The position numbers and the translations under genes were made by a program. The notes below the pieces were generated by a model. The model was not told the origin of the DNA and did no database searches. It was given only the letters and a program-made list of their open reading frames with translations. A stretch of DNA of 64,000 nt from a virus. Shown one piece after another: positions 26,324-34,775 of the stretch (position 1 is its first letter; each line of letters opens with the position of its first letter). The stretch is taken from positions 1-64,000 of the IMG/VR virus record IMGVR_UViG_3300043251_000023; one strand, given 5' to 3'.

Positions 26324-26490
26324 GCGAACGACCCCATTGCTGCAAAATCGGCTGCGATAAGCGCGCCGAATACGAAGTTCGATATGGTGTCAAACCGGAC
26401 GACTATGTTCACGCCTGTCTCGAACATATACCGGATTTGATGACGGACGCAGCGCGCCACTACATTGATAGAATCGAGCCGCCACGCTGA
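26320..26490 (+). CDS. 56-residue Cys/His protein
   Basis: GTG start overlapping the previous stop. PHCCKIGCDKRAEYEVRYG and HACLEHIPDL give a Cys/His pattern like small zinc-binding phage proteins. The stop overlaps the next gene by one base. Confidence 0.6.
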   Translation: MSERPHCCKIGCDKRAEYEVRYGVKPDDYVHACLEHIPDLMTDAARHYIDRIEPPR

Positions 26491-27482
26491 TGCCGAAGCA
26501 GCAGACCTTCCAGGACGTCCTCGCGGCCGCGATCAGCGATCTCGTAACGCACGGCTACGATTCGGCGGAGCGCGTCGAGAAGTGGGTCCGCGAACTCCGC
26601 ATGGCGGCCGAGCGGTCGCTGATCTCCGCGGCCTCACTCGAACAGCAACTCCGCGACGGCCTAGCCGCCGTCTACCGCCGGATGGTCGATCAAGGCGGCG
26701 CGCTCCGCTACAACCCCGGCGTCGAGCGGTTCACGCTGGAGAAACTCCGGCCGGCGCTGCGGGGGGAGTTGGACCGGCGGATTCTCGCGTCCGCGAATCT
26801 CATCAAGCTCAACCGTGCGCAGGCAATCGACAAGACGCTGCAACGCTTTCAGGGCTGGTCGACATCGATCCCGAAGGGCGGCGTGTCCGGCGAATCGCGC
26901 GCAGAGGTCAAGGCGAACGTCCGCAAGTCGCTCGCGTCGCTGACGTGGGAAGAGCGCCGAGTTGCCATCGATCAGGGCGCAAAACTCGTTGCGGCAATCA
27001 ACGATATTATCGCCGTCGATGGCGGAGCCATCGCAGGTTTCTGGGTGAGTCATTACAAACAGCAAGGCTACAATTTTAGGCCTGACCATGCCGAACGAGA
27101 TTCGCGAGAGAACGGCGGCCAGCCTTTCCTCATCCGAGACAGTTGGGCCGCGCGCGCCGGGTTCGTGAAAAAGGGAAAGTTGGGATATGCCGACGAGGTC
27201 ACCGCGCCAGCGCAAGAACCCTTCTGCCGGTGCTATTTTCGATTCGCGTACGCATTAAGAGATTTGCCGCCCGAGATGCTGACAGCCAAAGGCAAAGCCG
27301 CGCTCGCCTCCGTCCGTGGCGGCGAGGAAGTCCGTTCCGCCCGGCAGGCCCGCGCCGATTCGGCAGGTCCAGAGGTGGCCCCGAAGATCGGTCCCGAGGC
27401 GGAGCGGTATCGGCTGCAGAAAATGGTGGACGGCCTGAAGCGGGATTATGCGAGGATTTACGGGGGGCTACCGCCCGTCTAA
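26490..27482 (+). CDS. Mu gpF-like minor head protein
   Basis: 330 residues. Helical N-terminal two thirds; the C-terminal part has the NGGQPFLIRDSW...ADEVTAPAQEPFCRCYF pattern of phage head-morphogenesis (Mu gpF / SPP1 gp7-like) proteins, where Cys and a Pro-phase loop are conserved. Such proteins bind the portal and enter the head during assembly. Located soon after the portal gene as expected. Confidence 0.78.
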   Translation: MPKQQTFQDVLAAAISDLVTHGYDSAERVEKWVRELRMAAERSLISAASLEQQLRDGLAAVYRRMVDQGGALRYNPGVERFTLEKLRPALRGELDRRILASANLIKLNRAQAIDKTLQRFQGWSTSIPKGGVSGESRAEVKANVRKSLASLTWEERRVAIDQGAKLVAAINDIIAVDGGAIAGFWVSHYKQQGYNFRPDHAERDSRENGGQPFLIRDSWAARAGFVKKGKLGYADEVTAPAQEPFCRCYFRFAYALRDLPPEMLTAKGKAALASVRGGEEVRSARQARADSAGPEVAPKIGPEAERYRLQKMVDGLKRDYARIYGGLPPV

Positions 27483-27511: not shown

Positions 27512-27688
27512 ATGCAATCTCTACTAGATGCGATATGGCAGGAAAGGCACCTTGTCGGGGTGGCCGCTGGCTATACGATATGCAATGCCTTTCACGGCAA
27601 CCTTGATCTTGTGCCGCTCAATATCGCCATTTCAATCGGTTATATTTGGGCCGTTCATCGCTGGCGCCCCTACAAGTTACTGCAATGA
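27512..27688 (+). CDS. small membrane protein
   Basis: 58 residues, two hydrophobic segments (HLVGVAAGYTICNAF, LVPLNIAISIGYIWAV). CAACAGGG leader at 27494; the stop overlaps the next start by 4 nt. Unknown. Confidence 0.6.
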   Translation: MQSLLDAIWQERHLVGVAAGYTICNAFHGNLDLVPLNIAISIGYIWAVHRWRPYKLLQ

Positions 27689-28260
27689 GGCTCCGCGACA
27701 CGAACAAGCACCAAGACCTCGGCGAACTAAAGACGTTCGTCAATCTCGCGGTCGAACTCGACGTCCGGCGCTATCTCGAAATCGGAAGCCGCAACGGCGA
27801 CTCGTTCTTCGCGGTGATGGCGAACCTCCGGCCGGGCGCGTTCGGCATGTCGATTGACCTGCCGGAGAACGCGGAGACGATGGGGCGCATGGCTGCGACG
27901 CTTATCGAACTGCGCAACATGGGCCAGCGGACGGCCTTGCTCTATGAATCATCGCGGGAAACGTCCGCGTTGTGGGCGGCGAAGGCGAACGCGCCGTTCG
28001 ATCTTGTCCTGATCGACGGCGACCATACCTACGGCGGCGTAATCTCGGACTGGACCGATTATCAGGCGTTCGGGAAGGTCGTGGCCGTGCACGACATCGA
28101 CGCGCCGGCGGGATGGAAGTCGAGCGGCTTGCCGAACGAGGTCGGGCGGTTCTGGCGAGAACTCAAATCCGGCCTTCACACGCCGCCGCGCGCCGCGCAC
28201 GAGGCCCGCGAGTTCATCACGCCCGGCTCGAAGATGGGCTATGGGGTTGTTTTCCGATGA
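27685..28260 (+). CDS. class I SAM-dependent methyltransferase
   Basis: 191 residues. Motif I YLEIGSRNGDSFF, later DLVLIDGDHTYGGVISDW and VVAVHDIDAPAGW match the Methyltransf_24 type that often modifies sugars or small molecules. Followed at once by a GNAT-like gene and a glycosyltransferase-like gene, so a role in making or decorating a glycan on the virion, DNA or host surface is inferred. Confidence 0.82.
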   Translation: MRLRDTNKHQDLGELKTFVNLAVELDVRRYLEIGSRNGDSFFAVMANLRPGAFGMSIDLPENAETMGRMAATLIELRNMGQRTALLYESSRETSALWAAKANAPFDLVLIDGDHTYGGVISDWTDYQAFGKVVAVHDIDAPAGWKSSGLPNEVGRFWRELKSGLHTPPRAAHEAREFITPGSKMGYGVVFR

Positions 28261-28740: not shown

Positions 28741-29691
28741 ATGCGCGAGGTCTTCATTTCGATCCCGGCGTGGGGCCGCCACTACGTCGAGATGGCGACC
28801 CGCTACACGCTGCCGGCGATATGGGCGTCGCTACTGGCTTGGGATCGTGATGTCCGGGCAACGTTCATCGTCCACACCGACGAGCGCACGCTGTTTCGAA
28901 GGTCGGTCCCCGGCCTGCGGATAGACTTCCGGCCGGTCCAGCGAGGCATAGGGGCGGGCAATCTCGGGGACTGGGTCGCGTTCGAGCGCGCGCACCGGGA
29001 AGCAATCGAGCGAACGCCGGCCGGCGCGCTCCTCGTTCTCCTGAACTCCGACACCGTCGTGTCGATCGAGACCATGCGGGTCGTCAATGCCGCGCTGCGC
29101 GGGAACGTCAAGGTCGGCGTTTCGGTCGGCATCCGAACGCTGATCGACGGCAACGTCTGCCCTATAGGCGTGACCGCGGACGTCCTGGCGCGGTGGTGCT
29201 GGTCGCACCGGCACCACCTGACCGACGACATGCTGTGGGGAACCGGAGCCGCGCAGCAGCCGACGCAGATGTTCTTCCAGCACGACGACCATGACCGGGA
29301 CGTCTCGATGCACTGCTTCCACCTGACGCCGATGTTCATCGTCAAGGACCGGGAATTGAAGTTCGGCGGGACCATCGACGACGGGATGCTAGCGAACTAC
29401 GACGACCACGAGATCGCCTATTTCCGAGACCGGCCGTTCGTGATCGCGGAGCTTTCGCCGTTCGACAAGCATCACCCGCACGGCAAGCCCTTGACCAGCG
29501 TCGAGGCAGTGACGATGGACGGAACGCGCCAGGTCCATCCTGCACACTTGCGGAATTTCAAGCAGCAGTTCACCGTGTTCGGGAAGCCGCCGCTGCATCC
29601 CGCCGCGCAGGCGATCATCGGGGCGTTGGAGAAGCTCAATGCGCGAAATGCGTCTGACCGACCAAGAACTCCAGGCGCTCGTCGCGCCTAG
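28741..29691 (+). CDS. glycosyltransferase-like protein, copy 1
   Basis: 316 residues. FISIPAWGRHYV at the N-terminus, LLVLLNSDTVVSIETM (a D-x-D-like acidic site in a GT-A-type fold), VSVGIRTL, MLWGTGAAQ, HCFHLTPMFIVKDRELKFGGTIDDGMLANYD. The same blocks occur in order in 38841-39785, so the two are paralogs. A nucleotide-sugar transferase is the best guess; donor and acceptor are unknown. Lies after the methyltransferase and GNAT-like genes. Confidence 0.7.
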   Translation: MREVFISIPAWGRHYVEMATRYTLPAIWASLLAWDRDVRATFIVHTDERTLFRRSVPGLRIDFRPVQRGIGAGNLGDWVAFERAHREAIERTPAGALLVLLNSDTVVSIETMRVVNAALRGNVKVGVSVGIRTLIDGNVCPIGVTADVLARWCWSHRHHLTDDMLWGTGAAQQPTQMFFQHDDHDRDVSMHCFHLTPMFIVKDRELKFGGTIDDGMLANYDDHEIAYFRDRPFVIAELSPFDKHHPHGKPLTSVEAVTMDGTRQVHPAHLRNFKQQFTVFGKPPLHPAAQAIIGALEKLNARNASDRPRTPGARRA

Positions 29692-30448: not shown

Positions 30449-30546
30449 GGCGCATCCTCCAGCGGGACACGCATAATTTTGTCGCTCCCGCGAACTTGTG
30501 GTAGGAACCATCATACCACCTTTTAAGTTCCAGAGGGTTGGGGACC

Positions 30547-30822
30547 ATGCCGCTGACCGCCAAGGGCGAAGAGATCAAATCCGCGCTCACCAAGGAGTAC
30601 GGCAAGGAAAAGGGCGAGCAGGTCCTCTACGCGGGCAAGAACAAAGGCACGTTCACTGGGATCGATTCCACCCCCGCCGGCCTAAATACCGTCATCGACG
30701 CAGTCTGCTCGATGTGCGACAGCATCGACAAGATGACCGCGCGGCTCGGAGCGCACTGCGACGACCGGCGGGTGATCGGCGGCGTCGGGCATGACGCGAC
30801 GAACATCAAGGTCGTCTCGTGA
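30547..30822 (+). CDS. conserved small phage protein
   Basis: 91 residues. GEEIKSALTKEYGKEKGEQVLYAGKNKGTFTGID is a pattern found in small proteins beside phage protease and capsid genes. ATG 30547 follows AGAGGGTTGGGGACC. Overlaps the next start by 4 nt. Role unknown. Confidence 0.7.
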   Translation: MPLTAKGEEIKSALTKEYGKEKGEQVLYAGKNKGTFTGIDSTPAGLNTVIDAVCSMCDSIDKMTARLGAHCDDRRVIGGVGHDATNIKVVS

Positions 30823-32744
30823 AAGCTGCCGGGATTTTGCTCGTATCGATGAATGGAAACGCTTTGTTTCTCCGGCGGACCGCGAGCGCGCCCGATTGCC
30901 CCGCGTGTTGGGATTTTCCCGGTGGCGGCCAAGAAGGCGACGAGACCGCCGAGCAGACCGCGATCCGCGAGACCCGCGAGGAGATCGGCCACGTCCCCGA
31001 CGGCATCAGAATCCTCCACACCCGAACCCGATCCGGCTCCGCGCTGCAAGGCGTGGCTGGTCCCGGCGCGTCGCCGCTTGGCAACCCTGTTGACGGCGGC
31101 GCGCCGACGGCCCCTTCGATTGTCCCAGCGATGCCGGTCGATGTGGACTACACGACGTTCCTGCAAAAAGTGACGAACGAGTTCGTGCCGGAGCTCAACG
31201 ACGAGCACGACGGCTACGCCTGGTCGCCGATCACGGCGCCGCCCGAACCGCTGCATCCCGGTTGCCGGATCGCGCTCGAGCGTCTGTCGATGGACGAACT
31301 CGACGTCGCGCGGGCGATGGTCGACGGTCGCCTCGTCTCGCCGCAACGCTATGAAAACGTGACTTTGTGGGCGATTCGCATAACCGGGACGGGTGGTTCG
31401 TTCCGGCCCAAGGTCGAGGAATTTGTCTACCGCGATGCCGACATCCACCTGACCGAACGGATGCTGGCCCGCTGCAACGGCCTCCCGGTGATCTTCAAAC
31501 ACCCCGCCAAGGCGCTCCTGAACAGCGAGGAGTTCGCTAATCGTATTGTGGGGACCATTTTTTTGCCGTATGTTGCCGGCGATGAGGTCTGGGGCATCGC
31601 CAAAATCTACGACGATGAAACCAACCGGCTCTTAGACGAGGAGAACCTTTCCACCTCACCCGGCGTGAACTTCAAGGACTTCAAGGTCAATCGAAGTCTG
31701 CGCATGGAGGATGGTTCGAAGGTTCTCATCGAAGGCAAACCGAGTCTCGTCGACCACGTCGCGATTTGCGAGTTGGGCGTCTGGGACAAGGGCGGCGACC
31801 CGAGCGGCATTCGTTCCGAATCACGAGAGGACACAGCGATGGCTGACGAAGCGAAAAAGGAAGAGGCCAAGGACGATGCCGCGAAGAAGGATGCGGTCGC
31901 AGAGCAGCCCAAGATGGACGCCAAGAAAGACGCTGCCAAGGACGACGCCGCCCGCAAGGACGCGGACGCCGGCAAGTCCTTAGACGAAAAGCTCTCCCAC
32001 GTTCTCGATGCCGTCACCGGGTGCATGGACGCCGTGAAACGGGTCGACGCCCGGATGGACGCGATGGACGAGGAGAAGAAGAAAGCCGACGCGGCCAAGA
32101 AGGACGAGTTCCCGGACAAGAAGGAAGAAGCCGAAAAGACCGCCGCCGACAAGGCGAAGAAGGACGCGGCCGACAAGGAGGAGGAAGAAAAAAAGAAGGC
32201 CGACGCCGCCAAGAAAGACGAGGAAGACAAGGCGAAAGCCGATACCGCCGGTCTGGGCGACCGGATCGCCGCCGTCGAGCGCGCCGTCAAGGCGACCGAC
32301 GCGAAGATCATGCCGATCCCGGACGACGATCATTCCCGCCTCGCCGACGCTTGGGCAATCGCTGACGATGCCTGCCGGGCGCTGGGGATGAACGGCCCGC
32401 GCGCGATGCCGGGCGAGACCTCCGCGCAGTTCCGGCGCCGGGTGGTCAAGCTCCTCAAGCCGCACAGCGCGACCTGGAAGGACGTCGACATCGCCACGGC
32501 CGCCTATGCCGACGAAGCGATGTTCGCCGTCGTCGAGAAGCAGGTCCTCACCGACGCTGCGAAGGCGGCGCGCGACCCGGCCAATGTCGCCGGCGACCAG
32601 CTCCGCATGATCGAGCGCAAGGCGGACGGCCACACGATTCGCGAGTTCGTCGGTCGGCCGGCTGCCTGGATGAACCAGTTTGCCGGGCCGGTTCAGCTCC
32701 GCGGCGAGGGCAAGTTCCTTACCGACAATCTCGGCAAGAACTGA
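30819..32744 (+). CDS. Nudix / DUF2213 prohead protease / scaffold fusion
   Basis: 641 residues in three parts. 1-165: Nudix hydrolase, with the box GGQEGDETAEQTAIRETREE followed by IG at about residues 36-57. 173-335: DUF2213-type prohead protease region (VTLWAIRITGTGG, LTERMLARCNGLPVIFKHP, NRIVGTIFLPYVAGDEVWGIAKIYD, NLSTSPGVNFKDF). 341-641: a Lys/Ala/Asp/Glu-rich coiled-coil scaffold ending in a globular domain. Protease plus scaffold before the capsid gene is normal; a Nudix domain at the front is not. Nudix enzymes cleave nucleoside-diphosphate-linked compounds. Confidence 0.85.
   Translation: MKAAGILLVSMNGNALFLRRTASAPDCPACWDFPGGGQEGDETAEQTAIRETREEIGHVPDGIRILHTRTRSGSALQGVAGPGASPLGNPVDGGAPTAPSIVPAMPVDVDYTTFLQKVTNEFVPELNDEHDGYAWSPITAPPEPLHPGCRIALERLSMDELDVARAMVDGRLVSPQRYENVTLWAIRITGTGGSFRPKVEEFVYRDADIHLTERMLARCNGLPVIFKHPAKALLNSEEFANRIVGTIFLPYVAGDEVWGIAKIYDDETNRLLDEENLSTSPGVNFKDFKVNRSLRMEDGSKVLIEGKPSLVDHVAICELGVWDKGGDPSGIRSESREDTAMADEAKKEEAKDDAAKKDAVAEQPKMDAKKDAAKDDAARKDADAGKSLDEKLSHVLDAVTGCMDAVKRVDARMDAMDEEKKKADAAKKDEFPDKKEEAEKTAADKAKKDAADKEEEEKKKADAAKKDEEDKAKADTAGLGDRIAAVERAVKATDAKIMPIPDDDHSRLADAWAIADDACRALGMNGPRAMPGETSAQFRRRVVKLLKPHSATWKDVDIATAAYADEAMFAVVEKQVLTDAAKAARDPANVAGDQLRMIERKADGHTIREFVGRPAAWMNQFAGPVQLRGEGKFLTDNLGKN
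31839..32744 (+). CDS. possible nested scaffold protein (internal start)
   Basis: An in-frame ATG (codon 341 of the fusion) has GAGAGG 8 nt upstream and begins exactly where the protease region ends and the charged coiled coil starts (MADEAKKEEAKDD). Translation here would give a 301-residue free scaffold, as lambda Nu3 is made inside gene C. Not proven. Confidence 0.4.
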   Translation: MADEAKKEEAKDDAAKKDAVAEQPKMDAKKDAAKDDAARKDADAGKSLDEKLSHVLDAVTGCMDAVKRVDARMDAMDEEKKKADAAKKDEFPDKKEEAEKTAADKAKKDAADKEEEEKKKADAAKKDEEDKAKADTAGLGDRIAAVERAVKATDAKIMPIPDDDHSRLADAWAIADDACRALGMNGPRAMPGETSAQFRRRVVKLLKPHSATWKDVDIATAAYADEAMFAVVEKQVLTDAAKAARDPANVAGDQLRMIERKADGHTIREFVGRPAAWMNQFAGPVQLRGEGKFLTDNLGKN

Positions 32745-32797: not shown

Positions 32798-33700
32798 ATG
32801 GTCGCGTCCGTCACCTTCCAGCCCTACCTGCAGAGCGGCGGCAACGCTGGTCTCTTCAACGTTCAGTCCAGCGGCTATCGGCAGGGCACGGCGATGCCCG
32901 ATCCCTCGACCCGCTATCGCTTGCGGGGTGGCATCTTGGCGACGACCGAGACGCTACCGATGTGGGGAGGGGTCGGCGTCTACGCGAACGTCCCTGGCGG
33001 CGGCTATCCCGGAACGCAGGGCGTTCCTGGTTCCCCGAGCGGTTCTCTCGGTCCGATCCTCGGCCGCGCTACGGCGCTGACCGGTACCACAAAGCTCGCC
33101 GGCTTCTCAGTCTTCGACGAAGCCTACGGCATGATCACGTCGCCGCAATCTCCGGTCCCGCTGGCTGGCTCCGGAATGCAGGTCAACTACTACCCGCTCG
33201 GCTCGCTGGCGCGCATCGTGGTCGCCTGCGATCCGTCCCTGACGTCGCTCCGCGGTGGCACGACCTACCAGCCGGCGGTCGCGTGGGACTTCACGAACCA
33301 GCTTCTCATCCCCGAACTCGGTACGCTCGTGATCTCGTCCGGCACCTACGTCTCCGCCACCGGCGTGATCACGCTGACGATGGCGGTCGCTCCCACCTTC
33401 AGCCCCGGCGACTCGCTCACTCTTGCATCGCTCACCGGCACCGGCGCCTTTGCCACGCTCGACGGCACCTGGACGGTTCTGACCGTTGTTGGTTCCGTGG
33501 TCACTTTGCAGGGTCCGGTCGCGGCTGGCGCGGCGACGATCACCGGCGGCAACGCCACGGTCGGCGGCTCGGCCAGCCAGGCGCTCCCGGTCAACGTACT
33601 CGACATCAATCCGTCGAACTCCGAGACCGTCGTCTACAACTCGACGACCGGCTTCGCGACGTACAACTATTCCGGCGCCGCAGCCCTTATCCAGATTTGA
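32798..33700 (+). CDS. capsid decoration-like structural protein
   Basis: 300 residues, beta-rich, Gly/Ser/Thr-rich. It lies between scaffold and major capsid genes, where decoration or stabilising proteins are often encoded. Residues about 185-262 (GVITLTMAVAPTFSPGDSLTLASL...) look like an inserted Ig/beta domain related to that in the tail genes. TCAGGAGAACCAG precedes the ATG; a CAACAGGG copy lies 36 nt upstream. Confidence 0.6.
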   Translation: MVASVTFQPYLQSGGNAGLFNVQSSGYRQGTAMPDPSTRYRLRGGILATTETLPMWGGVGVYANVPGGGYPGTQGVPGSPSGSLGPILGRATALTGTTKLAGFSVFDEAYGMITSPQSPVPLAGSGMQVNYYPLGSLARIVVACDPSLTSLRGGTTYQPAVAWDFTNQLLIPELGTLVISSGTYVSATGVITLTMAVAPTFSPGDSLTLASLTGTGAFATLDGTWTVLTVVGSVVTLQGPVAAGAATITGGNATVGGSASQALPVNVLDINPSNSETVVYNSTTGFATYNYSGAAALIQI

Positions 33701-33752: not shown

Positions 33753-34775
33753 ATGTCGATTCAGGCGCACGCTTACACCACGTTGAACCCCTCGTTCATC
33801 GAGCCGGAGTTTCTCATCCAGTACAGCCAAGCGTCGGGCTTCATCGACGTCTTGGCCGAAGGGCAGATGCGGGTTCGTCTCTCCGAGGACGACCTCATCG
33901 TCTACATGAAGCAGATGAACTTCCGGGCGAAGATCGCGGCGAACACGGCGGGTTCTCAGGAACTCCCCGGCGTCGACATCTTGGCGACCATGATCTCGGC
34001 GCCGACCTACCTCCTCCAGGTCCGCAACCAGTACAATCACCACGACGTTGCCGCCGGTTCCCGGTGGGGCTTCGCGGTGCCGGAGGCCTACCGCCTCGGC
34101 GGCCGGCAGGCGAACTACCAGCTCGCCCGCGACGCTTGCCTCTTCGGCATGAACCCGCAGAACGGCGAGGGCCTCATCAACGCGACCGGAGCGACGGCGA
34201 TCAATCTGCCGCCGGACACATTCGGCAACTCGACGGTCGTGACCTACGACAACGGCCAGATGGCGTTCTTCATCGCGCAGCAGGTCCTCAACATCAAAAC
34301 GCGGACCTATCAGCTCGGTCTCGGCAAGAAGATCACCATCCTCGGCCCGCAGCGGACGCTCGGCTTGTTCGAGTACAACATCGTCCAACTCGTCCAGTAT
34401 CAGCGGCCGGGCGCCGGCACGACCTCGACTGCGGGGACCGTCAAGGAAATTTTGATGGCGAACGGCGACACGCTTATCTGGGCCTACGACGACACGCTGA
34501 TCGGCGCGGGCGCGGGCGGGACGGACGCGATCATCATCTGTATGCCCGAGGTCGACAAGCCGAAGGGCGACCAGCCCGTGAACACGAACATCTTCGCCAG
34601 CTTGCTTCCCGGTTCGAAGGTCTGCCTGACGCAATACTGCGACATGGCGGCCCCGCGCGAGATTGTCTCGCCGATGGCCGGCGGCGCTACGGATTTCCTG
34701 CAGGAATGGAGGATCTCAAGCGGCTGGGCAGCGCGAGCGCAGGCTTTGACCGTGCTCAGCGCGCAATATCAATAG
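33753..34775 (+). CDS. major capsid protein (DUF2184-like)
   Basis: 340 residues. FIEPEFLIQYSQASGFIDVLAEG, RAKIAANTAGSQELPGVDI, NYQLARDACLFGMNPQNGEGLIN and the C-terminal CDMAAPREIVSPMAGGATDFLQEW fit the DUF2184 capsid family with an HK97 fold. Directly downstream of scaffold and decoration genes. No delta-domain cleavage site is apparent from the sequence. AACGAGGAAAA precedes the ATG. Confidence 0.85.
   Translation: MSIQAHAYTTLNPSFIEPEFLIQYSQASGFIDVLAEGQMRVRLSEDDLIVYMKQMNFRAKIAANTAGSQELPGVDILATMISAPTYLLQVRNQYNHHDVAAGSRWGFAVPEAYRLGGRQANYQLARDACLFGMNPQNGEGLINATGATAINLPPDTFGNSTVVTYDNGQMAFFIAQQVLNIKTRTYQLGLGKKITILGPQRTLGLFEYNIVQLVQYQRPGAGTTSTAGTVKEILMANGDTLIWAYDDTLIGAGAGGTDAIIICMPEVDKPKGDQPVNTNIFASLLPGSKVCLTQYCDMAAPREIVSPMAGGATDFLQEWRISSGWAARAQALTVLSAQYQ

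Follow-up and report, generated by a model that had tools for sequence, protein, structure and literature searches.

We describe a head-protease gene whose family appears to carry interchangeable enzymes at its N-terminus. The gene lies in a 64,000-nucleotide stretch of virus DNA (the window; IMG/VR record IMGVR_UViG_3300043251_000023, positions 1 to 64,000 of a 73,543-base virus contig), where positions 30819-32744 of the plus strand form a single unbroken frame of 641 codons with a GTG start. The encoded chain is laid out as a Nudix domain (residues 1-158), a protease (residues ~155-335) and a charged scaffold from Met341. Comparison of this protein with its relatives indicates that the N-terminus of the protease family behaves as an exchangeable cargo slot; among close phages it holds a Nudix domain, an ADP-ribosyltransferase (ART) plus Nudix, a PBECR1 nuclease domain plus Nudix, an unrecognised region, or nothing. 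Such an exchangeable front end suggests that these phages use a head protease to bring enzymes into their particles. As judged from the accessible portions of the cited work, the domain pair (PMC8770471), the PHROG family and the effectors on MuF and portal proteins were already known; the protease N-terminus as an exchangeable slot is new in this analysis.

Exchange at the N-terminus of the protease family

Homologs were drawn from IMG/VR, one-genome-per-species contigs and phage records, giving 112 protease-bearing open reading frames (ORFs), of which 86 non-redundant homologs remained after removal of those more than 90% identical; individual loci are designated by L numbers. Enzymes other than Nudix are found at the front of several of these proteins. 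An ADP-ribosyltransferase domain (PF03496) precedes the Nudix domain in L227 and L166 (E=5.5e-19 and 3e-18), a PBECR1 nuclease domain does so in L226 (E=4.4e-9), and L218, L274, L169 and L214 bear other N-terminal regions in which no enzyme was recognised with Pfam or PHROG. Relative to Nudix-only kin, these enzymes correspond to clean insertions upstream of the Nudix domain: the homologous blocks are separated by 618 bases in L256, which has the ADP-ribosyltransferase insert, vs 33 in L263, by 739 bases in L227 vs 40 in L242, and by 622 bases in L226 vs 40 in L242, with all three differences being multiples of three. L256 and L166 fall in one cluster at 90% identity, which includes Nudix-only members such as L263.

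The Nudix domain itself is variably present. A second search, run with a Nudix-free query (A2) to lessen bias, returned a fused Nudix in 60 of 80 loci and 36 of 48 clusters among the matches listed. Across all sets there are 106 clusters at 90% protease identity; Nudix is present in 84 of them, mixed in 3 and absent from 19. Among these 19, L190 is frameshifted, whereas a Nudix gene lies upstream in L247, L286 and L258; in L247 this is a separate gene directly before the protease gene with an ATGA overlap, and in L286 it is apparently also a separate gene directly before the protease gene, with a possible TTGA overlap. No Nudix was seen in the available stretch, which varies in length, of the other 15 clusters. 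In eight of the 19 (L178, L223, L233, L235, L237, L238, L268 and L284), a short motif alone precedes the protease, and in the members tested this motif corresponds to PHROG 16759.

A 108-row tree of the protease requires no fewer than 14 changes of the fused state, a count that falls to 13 when the frameshifted L243 is omitted and to 11 when the rows with separate Nudix genes are omitted as well; many of the branches are weak, and the starred branches alone force 7 changes, with L243 still included in that figure. Two close pairs capture such a change directly. L264 (with Nudix) and L261 (without) differ by one in-frame 405-nt gap whose immediate flanks are ~98.5% identical, while L245 (with Nudix) and L251 (without) differ by one in-frame 399-nt gap with flanks ~89-91% identical, an absence also seen in L252. 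A search of the rest of the L261, L251 and L252 records, all fragments, found no other Nudix. Synonymous divergence (dS) is higher in the Nudix domain than in the protease in 24 of 28 close pairs (not all independent), which agrees with cassette exchange. A third presumptive plus/minus pair, L244 and L243, was rejected: the loci are 99.98% identical, one single-base gap splits the Nudix from the protease frame, and the difference is likely a frameshift, sequencing error or fresh mutation.

The fused chain and its predicted nested scaffold

An initial annotation of this DNA had placed a Nudix hydrolase, a DUF2213-type prohead protease and a scaffold in one chain, with a frameshift or assembly error as the way in which two genes might have been spuriously joined. 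The three-part chain is upheld by the intact frame and by full-length relatives, and no frameshift joining two genes was found. PHROG 6216 ('unknown function') covers nearly the whole protein (E=9e-124), and full-length homologs occur in IMG/VR contigs at 100, 90 and 52% as well as in phage records, including Shewanella phage vB_Sb_QDWS (43%), Pantoea phage PdC23, Yersinia vB_YenM phages and Klebsiella phages Chronis, RothC and RothD. Isolate phages, prophages and metagenomes all contain the same fusion, which rules out an assembly artefact. In all, 63 phage records matched the 641-residue protein, the majority through Nudix alone. Nudix-only IMG/VR hits (L004-L079) were also considered as relatives; among the 28 of 76 records examined only L008 has a DUF2213 match, so that the majority are free-standing Nudix genes from other phages with no relation to this family. 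L008 and L213 form a second, deeper branch in which canonical DUF2213 is joined to a fused Nudix.

Existing annotations of the family are uneven. Homologs at L084 4986-6617, L082 6001-7293 and L085 4001-5323 carry names that look wrong for a head protease-scaffold; a Yersinia phage homolog is annotated as 'glycosyl transferase' and those of Rac-SA53 and pPE4 as 'TolA protein'. In Kluyvera genomosp. 3 strain YDC799 (L190 5986-7600), the Nudix-protease-scaffold gene is split over overlapping frames, as in a decayed prophage.

The Nudix assignment is supported by both sequence and predicted structure. Pfam NUDIX (PF00293) matches residues 2-141 well above the cut-off, and a model of residues 1-344, built with 78 relatives, has a mean predicted local distance difference test score (pLDDT) of 90.6 and a predicted template modelling score (pTM) of 0.87. 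Residues 1-158 of this model superimpose on the Nudix structure 4dyw over 122 residues at 2.0 Å; since many Nudix structures and classes tie in this comparison, no substrate class is drawn from the fold. The complete Nudix box, as first noted in the window, is kept in homologs, the strict pattern being present in 71 of 86; the remaining 15 comprise 8 rows without Nudix in frame and 7 with a variant box, among them L184, where a catalytic-box glutamate is replaced by lysine. The two U positions of the GX5EX7REUXEEXGU box are not hydrophobic in the window (T52, H58). G36, R50, E51, E54 and E55 are invariant in all 79 rows of alignment A3, which were selected for having a Nudix match. The pooled ratio of nonsynonymous to synonymous differences (pN/pS) is 0.18 in the Nudix domain compared with 0.135 in the protease. 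It was taken from 30 close pairs, which are not all independent: one contig pair was entered twice (L100/L102 = L285/L288, dropped once for the dS comparison) and several contigs sit in two pairs under different locus numbers. Between the window and L002, the corresponding rate ratio (dN/dS) for Nudix is 0.055. The conserved box and purifying selection predict that the Nudix domain is probably an active enzyme. It is very improbable that the domain is a degenerate passenger without function, a view that could appeal to its frequent gains and losses and to the glutamate lost in L184 but that is contradicted by the low pN/pS and dN/dS and by catalytic residues that do not vary in any Nudix-bearing row of the alignment.

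The middle domain is assigned to the head proteases by its fold rather than by its Pfam match. Pfam DUF2213 (PF09979) matches residues 201-320 with E=0.0011 and 19.4 bits, under the curated cut-off of 22; some homologs exceed this cut-off (e.g. the L171 protein, 30.6 bits), and the window protease is classed as DUF2213-like, not as a DUF2213 member. The fold, as modelled, is that of T4 gp21 and the herpesvirus proteases: a protease-only model (pLDDT 93.7) aligns with the T4 gp21 capsid protease (5jbl) with Z 10.5 and 2.7 Å over 130 residues, and herpesvirus proteases come next, with Z no higher than 7.6. Foldseek E-values by themselves give a weak signal, from 1e-3 to 7e-3 in the top rows and 7e-3 for 5jbl. 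His228 (31500-31502) and Ser278-Thr279-Ser280-Pro281 (Ser278-Thr-Ser280 at 31650-31658) are conserved in 86 of 86 rows, Asp312 in 85 and His313 in 84; His228 and the two serines provide the conserved active-site residues, Ser278 or Ser280 being the candidate nucleophile. A sequence of the form [LIMV]xE, resembling the motif at which T4 gp21 cleaves, occupies residues 158-160 in 67 of 85 rows; because its glutamate is kept in Nudix-free members as well, it serves only as a lead and may be structural.

From about residue 341 onward the chain is visibly rich in K, E, D and A. In phage lambda, the scaffold Nu3 is made from an in-frame start inside the gene for protease C, an enzyme of another fold family than the window protease and one for which we know of no N-terminal cargo. 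A Nu3-like start at 31839 had been predicted in the window, and family-wide conservation and naturally split genes now lend it support. Met341 is encoded by ATG at this position, and methionine occupies the same column in 69 of 86 rows. For each protein, we took the first methionine within 45 residues of the protease end and compared pairing of its upstream 21 bases to the anti-Shine-Dalgarno sequence with that of synonymous versions; an earlier variant choosing the best of several methionines was biased and was replaced by this one. Such a first methionine exists in 77 of 81 proteins, with a mean duplex energy of -6.0 vs -4.45 in synonymous versions (Wilcoxon p=2.7e-10), whereas 162 other internal methionines show the reverse (-2.5 vs -3.0). 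The window's own site (-5.8 kcal/mol) is no better than its synonymous versions, and support for the internal start therefore rests on the family. Additionally, the scaffold is a separate ORF starting near the junction in nine loci (L116, L126, L132, L133, L156, L162, L164, L165 and L170) and likewise in L187. The internal start is conserved across the family, and a separate scaffold product is a supported prediction.

Possible roles of the carried enzymes

The reading that we favour, and to which we would give an even chance, is that effector enzymes enter the procapsid as passengers of the protease-scaffold, to be released and subsequently injected. The procapsid interior contains protease and scaffold, and in T4 the protease gp21 processes packaged proteins such as Alt, an ADP-ribosyltransferase that is injected and is dispensable for assembly (PMC5694885, in the portions accessible to us). 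T4 thus resembles the window family in having a gp21-fold protease, and its protease acts on a packaged, injected ADP-ribosyltransferase and other proteins. The T4 cargo, however, consists of separate proteins that a short sequence at the N-terminus directs to the head, whereas the cargo of the window family is covalently part of the protease chain (PMC5694885, same portions). From knowledge of T4 gp21 and Alt together with the exchange pattern, we infer that Nudix acts as a loaded, protease-freed effector. It would be loaded inside the procapsid as part of the protease-scaffold chain, since protease and scaffold assemble there; the protease would then cut itself off cargo and scaffold, at least some Nudix would remain in the head to enter the next host with the DNA, and soon after infection begins the injected enzyme would hydrolyse a metabolite or defence signal of nucleotide type. 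Scaffold from the internal start would provide the bulk of the scaffold, so that only a minority of chains would carry protease and cargo. A more general form of this proposal, which we hold more tentatively and place somewhat short of an even chance, is that the N-terminus is a general cargo bay from which Nudix, ADP-ribosyltransferase and PBECR1 alike are loaded, freed by the protease and injected, with the protease as both loader and releaser. The only hint toward an ADP-ribose or NAD-signal substrate is that in a few relatives the chain also includes an ADP-ribosyltransferase, and nothing usable was found in the literature on Nudix enzymes with anti-defence and ADP-ribose.

Several observations weigh against delivery of the Nudix domain by this route. 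At least one fused member is present in 87 of the 106 clusters (and in 36 of 48 with the Nudix-free query, among the matches listed), and effector cassettes besides Nudix are found in only 3 architectures (L227, the L166 group and L226). Because most members carry it, Nudix is nearer a default part than ART or PBECR1 and, being unlike the other cargo in this respect, may have a more ancient function, either within the producing cell or during assembly. Given the separate Nudix genes of L247 and apparently L286, covalent loading is not universal. A survey of canonical DUF2213 in two samples, of 399 and 385 genomes, identified 17 places, including the already known L194; in these short loci from sampled genomes, only L213 of the remaining 16 has a fused Nudix. 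Scaffold and core fragments exit the T4 head (PMC5694885, accessible portions), and a released 17-kDa Nudix might therefore be lost; the initial suggestion that the Nudix part comes free or disappears late in assembly is plausible. Finally, no virion proteomics, cleavage or activity data on family members were found.

Some of these same observations bear on a role for Nudix late in infection of the producing cell, where it might clear nucleotides that are oxidised or in excess, NAD derivatives, capped RNA or a defence signal, its fusion serving co-expression only and its presence in the virion not being needed. The late gene position, the intact catalytic box, the separate Nudix genes of L247 and L286 and the T4-type precedent for core fragments leaving the head (PMC5694885, accessible portions) are all compatible with this explanation. 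We nevertheless consider it rather unlikely, as a free-standing gene would do equally well and as the slot is common to ADP-ribosyltransferase and PBECR1, classes that are predicted to be virion-delivered (PMC5512222, in part).

Less probable still is that Nudix belongs to the assembly machinery, either timing the activation of the protease as a sensor or binder of a nucleotide or metal, or giving the procapsid core its shape. Nudix and protease are indeed predicted as one well-ordered unit (the pLDDT and pTM given above), and most members retain the domain. Yet Nudix is cleanly absent between flanks that are ~89-99% identical, exists in separate-gene forms and has unrelated cargo beside it in the same slot, and its conserved residues are the catalytic ones. 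Regulation of the protease by nucleotide binding, one of the functions initially suggested, is disfavoured because some close relatives cleanly lack Nudix, other relatives encode it as a gene of its own, and unrelated enzymes also occupy the slot.

Effector delivery through the protease chain would extend themes established for other head proteins. Effector domains on MuF and portal proteins and in polyvalent proteins are well described, and a VIP2-like ART present in Percival is absent in Floof, an effector swapped between close relatives (PMC5512222, PMC5576092, PMC7302621). In those systems, as in the window family, enzymes are fused to head proteins and swapped between close relatives, but the carrier is MuF or portal rather than a maturation protease-scaffold, and neither a protease carrier nor comparable Nudix cargo is named in the accessible portions of these three papers. 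The window family displays two features of virion-delivered effectors, fusion to a head protein within the head module and exchange with other effector domains. Pfam's DUF2213 + NUDIX architecture is the same domain pair as in the window protein; the accessible text of PMC8770471 associates DUF2213 with PF00293 and treats DUF2213 as a putative essential bacterial domain. Neither that text nor PHROG 6216 assigns the pair a role, and the text does not cover cassette exchange, ART, PBECR1 or the scaffold start. A search of the open-licence literature, with most subscription journals and all preprints outside its scope, found no paper on effector cargo carried by a head protease. Effector carriage by MuF and portal proteins is known from sequence, and if the favoured reading is true, the maturation protease is a further carrier route, one with built-in release. 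Why head modules hold Nudix enzymes becomes directly testable in cultured Shewanella, Pantoea, Yersinia and Klebsiella phages, for which the natural Nudix-plus/Nudix-minus pairs serve as a guide.

Related cargo and the surrounding head module

Kin of the carried enzymes are found on other virion proteins, which, like the intact Nudix under purifying selection, speaks for the favoured reading. Pseudomonas phages Orisa01-03 and Orimi01 encode relatives of the L227 ADP-ribosyltransferase that are 65% identical to it, and a 27% identical counterpart lies on a MuF protein of MW202455. In Orisa03 (L289 2270-4381), an unannotated ADP-ribosyltransferase lies at the portal C-terminus; Orisa01, Orisa02 and Orimi01 give the same match, the C-terminal position having been checked in Orisa03 alone. 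The portal protein of Burkholderia phage Bcep781 belongs to the same family (PF06381) and has a Nudix in the equivalent C-terminal position, and Burkholderia phage Bm1 has a 142-residue Nudix gene between its MuF and protease genes. Large proteins that also contain tail-lysozyme, ddrB-ParB or SLT domains harbour kin of the L226 PBECR1 cassette (56-60%), and one of these proteins matches 'internal virion protein with endolysin domain'. A match of phrog_595 ('head maturation protease') to ADP-ribosyltransferase was dropped as a precedent; its matches in genomes fall on different stretches of the profile and seem to represent several different proteins.

In the window, the 641-codon gene sits downstream of a MuF-like gene and upstream of the major capsid gene (Table 1), with other genes between MuF and protease. 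These include a methyltransferase-like gene (27646-28260; Methyltransf_24, E=7.2e-9) and a 316-residue gene without a match (28741-29691). PF09950 in the major capsid protein scores just under the cut-off (E=6.1e-6).

Table 1. Coordinates of the protease-scaffold gene, its parts and neighbouring genes in the window
Feature	Position	Strand	Evidence
Nudix - head protease - scaffold polyprotein, 641 amino acids	30819..32744	+	PHROG 6216 over residues 4-624
Nudix domain, residues 1-158	30819..31292	+	PF00293 E=5.7e-13; structural alignment best Z 18.1
Nudix box GX5EX7REXXEEXG, residues 36-57	30924..30989	+	strict pattern in window and homologs
Head (prohead) protease domain, predicted T4 gp21/herpesvirus-protease fold, DUF2213-like	31281..31823	+	model and conserved residues
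Predicted nested scaffold frame from Met341 (internal start), 301 amino acids	31839..32744	+	Met column, ribosome-site test, separate ORFs
GAGAGG, Shine-Dalgarno-like, 8 nt before internal ATG	31825..31830	+	duplex energy -5.8 kcal/mol
Small upstream ORF, 94 amino acids, 'LTAKGEEIKSALTKEYG..' motif, overlaps GTG start	30538..30822	+	sequence
MuF-like head morphogenesis protein, same head module	26490..27482	+	phrog_324 E=1.3e-17
Conserved gene between protease and capsid genes	32798..33700	+	phrog_6268 E=6.3e-44
Major capsid protein	33753..34775	+	phrog_6671 E=1.5e-128; phrog_264 'major head protein' E=3.6e-6

The small ORF immediately upstream, for which neither Pfam nor PHROG gave a match, overlaps the GTG start by four bases (GTGA). 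Three short conserved motifs of ~35 residues, two of them corresponding to PHROG 16759 and PHROG 2423, recur in the family, sitting at the front of the protease frame in some members and on a small or mid-sized ORF directly upstream in others; they are found in the window at 30538-30822 and in L227, L226, L216, L274, L142, L141, L131 and L132. These motifs might be head-targeting tags. In L142, L141, L122, L131 and L132, the ORF directly upstream of the Nudix-protease gene is tagged, measures 180-295 codons from stop to stop and varies in its C-terminal part; such ORFs may encode further, separate cargo proteins.

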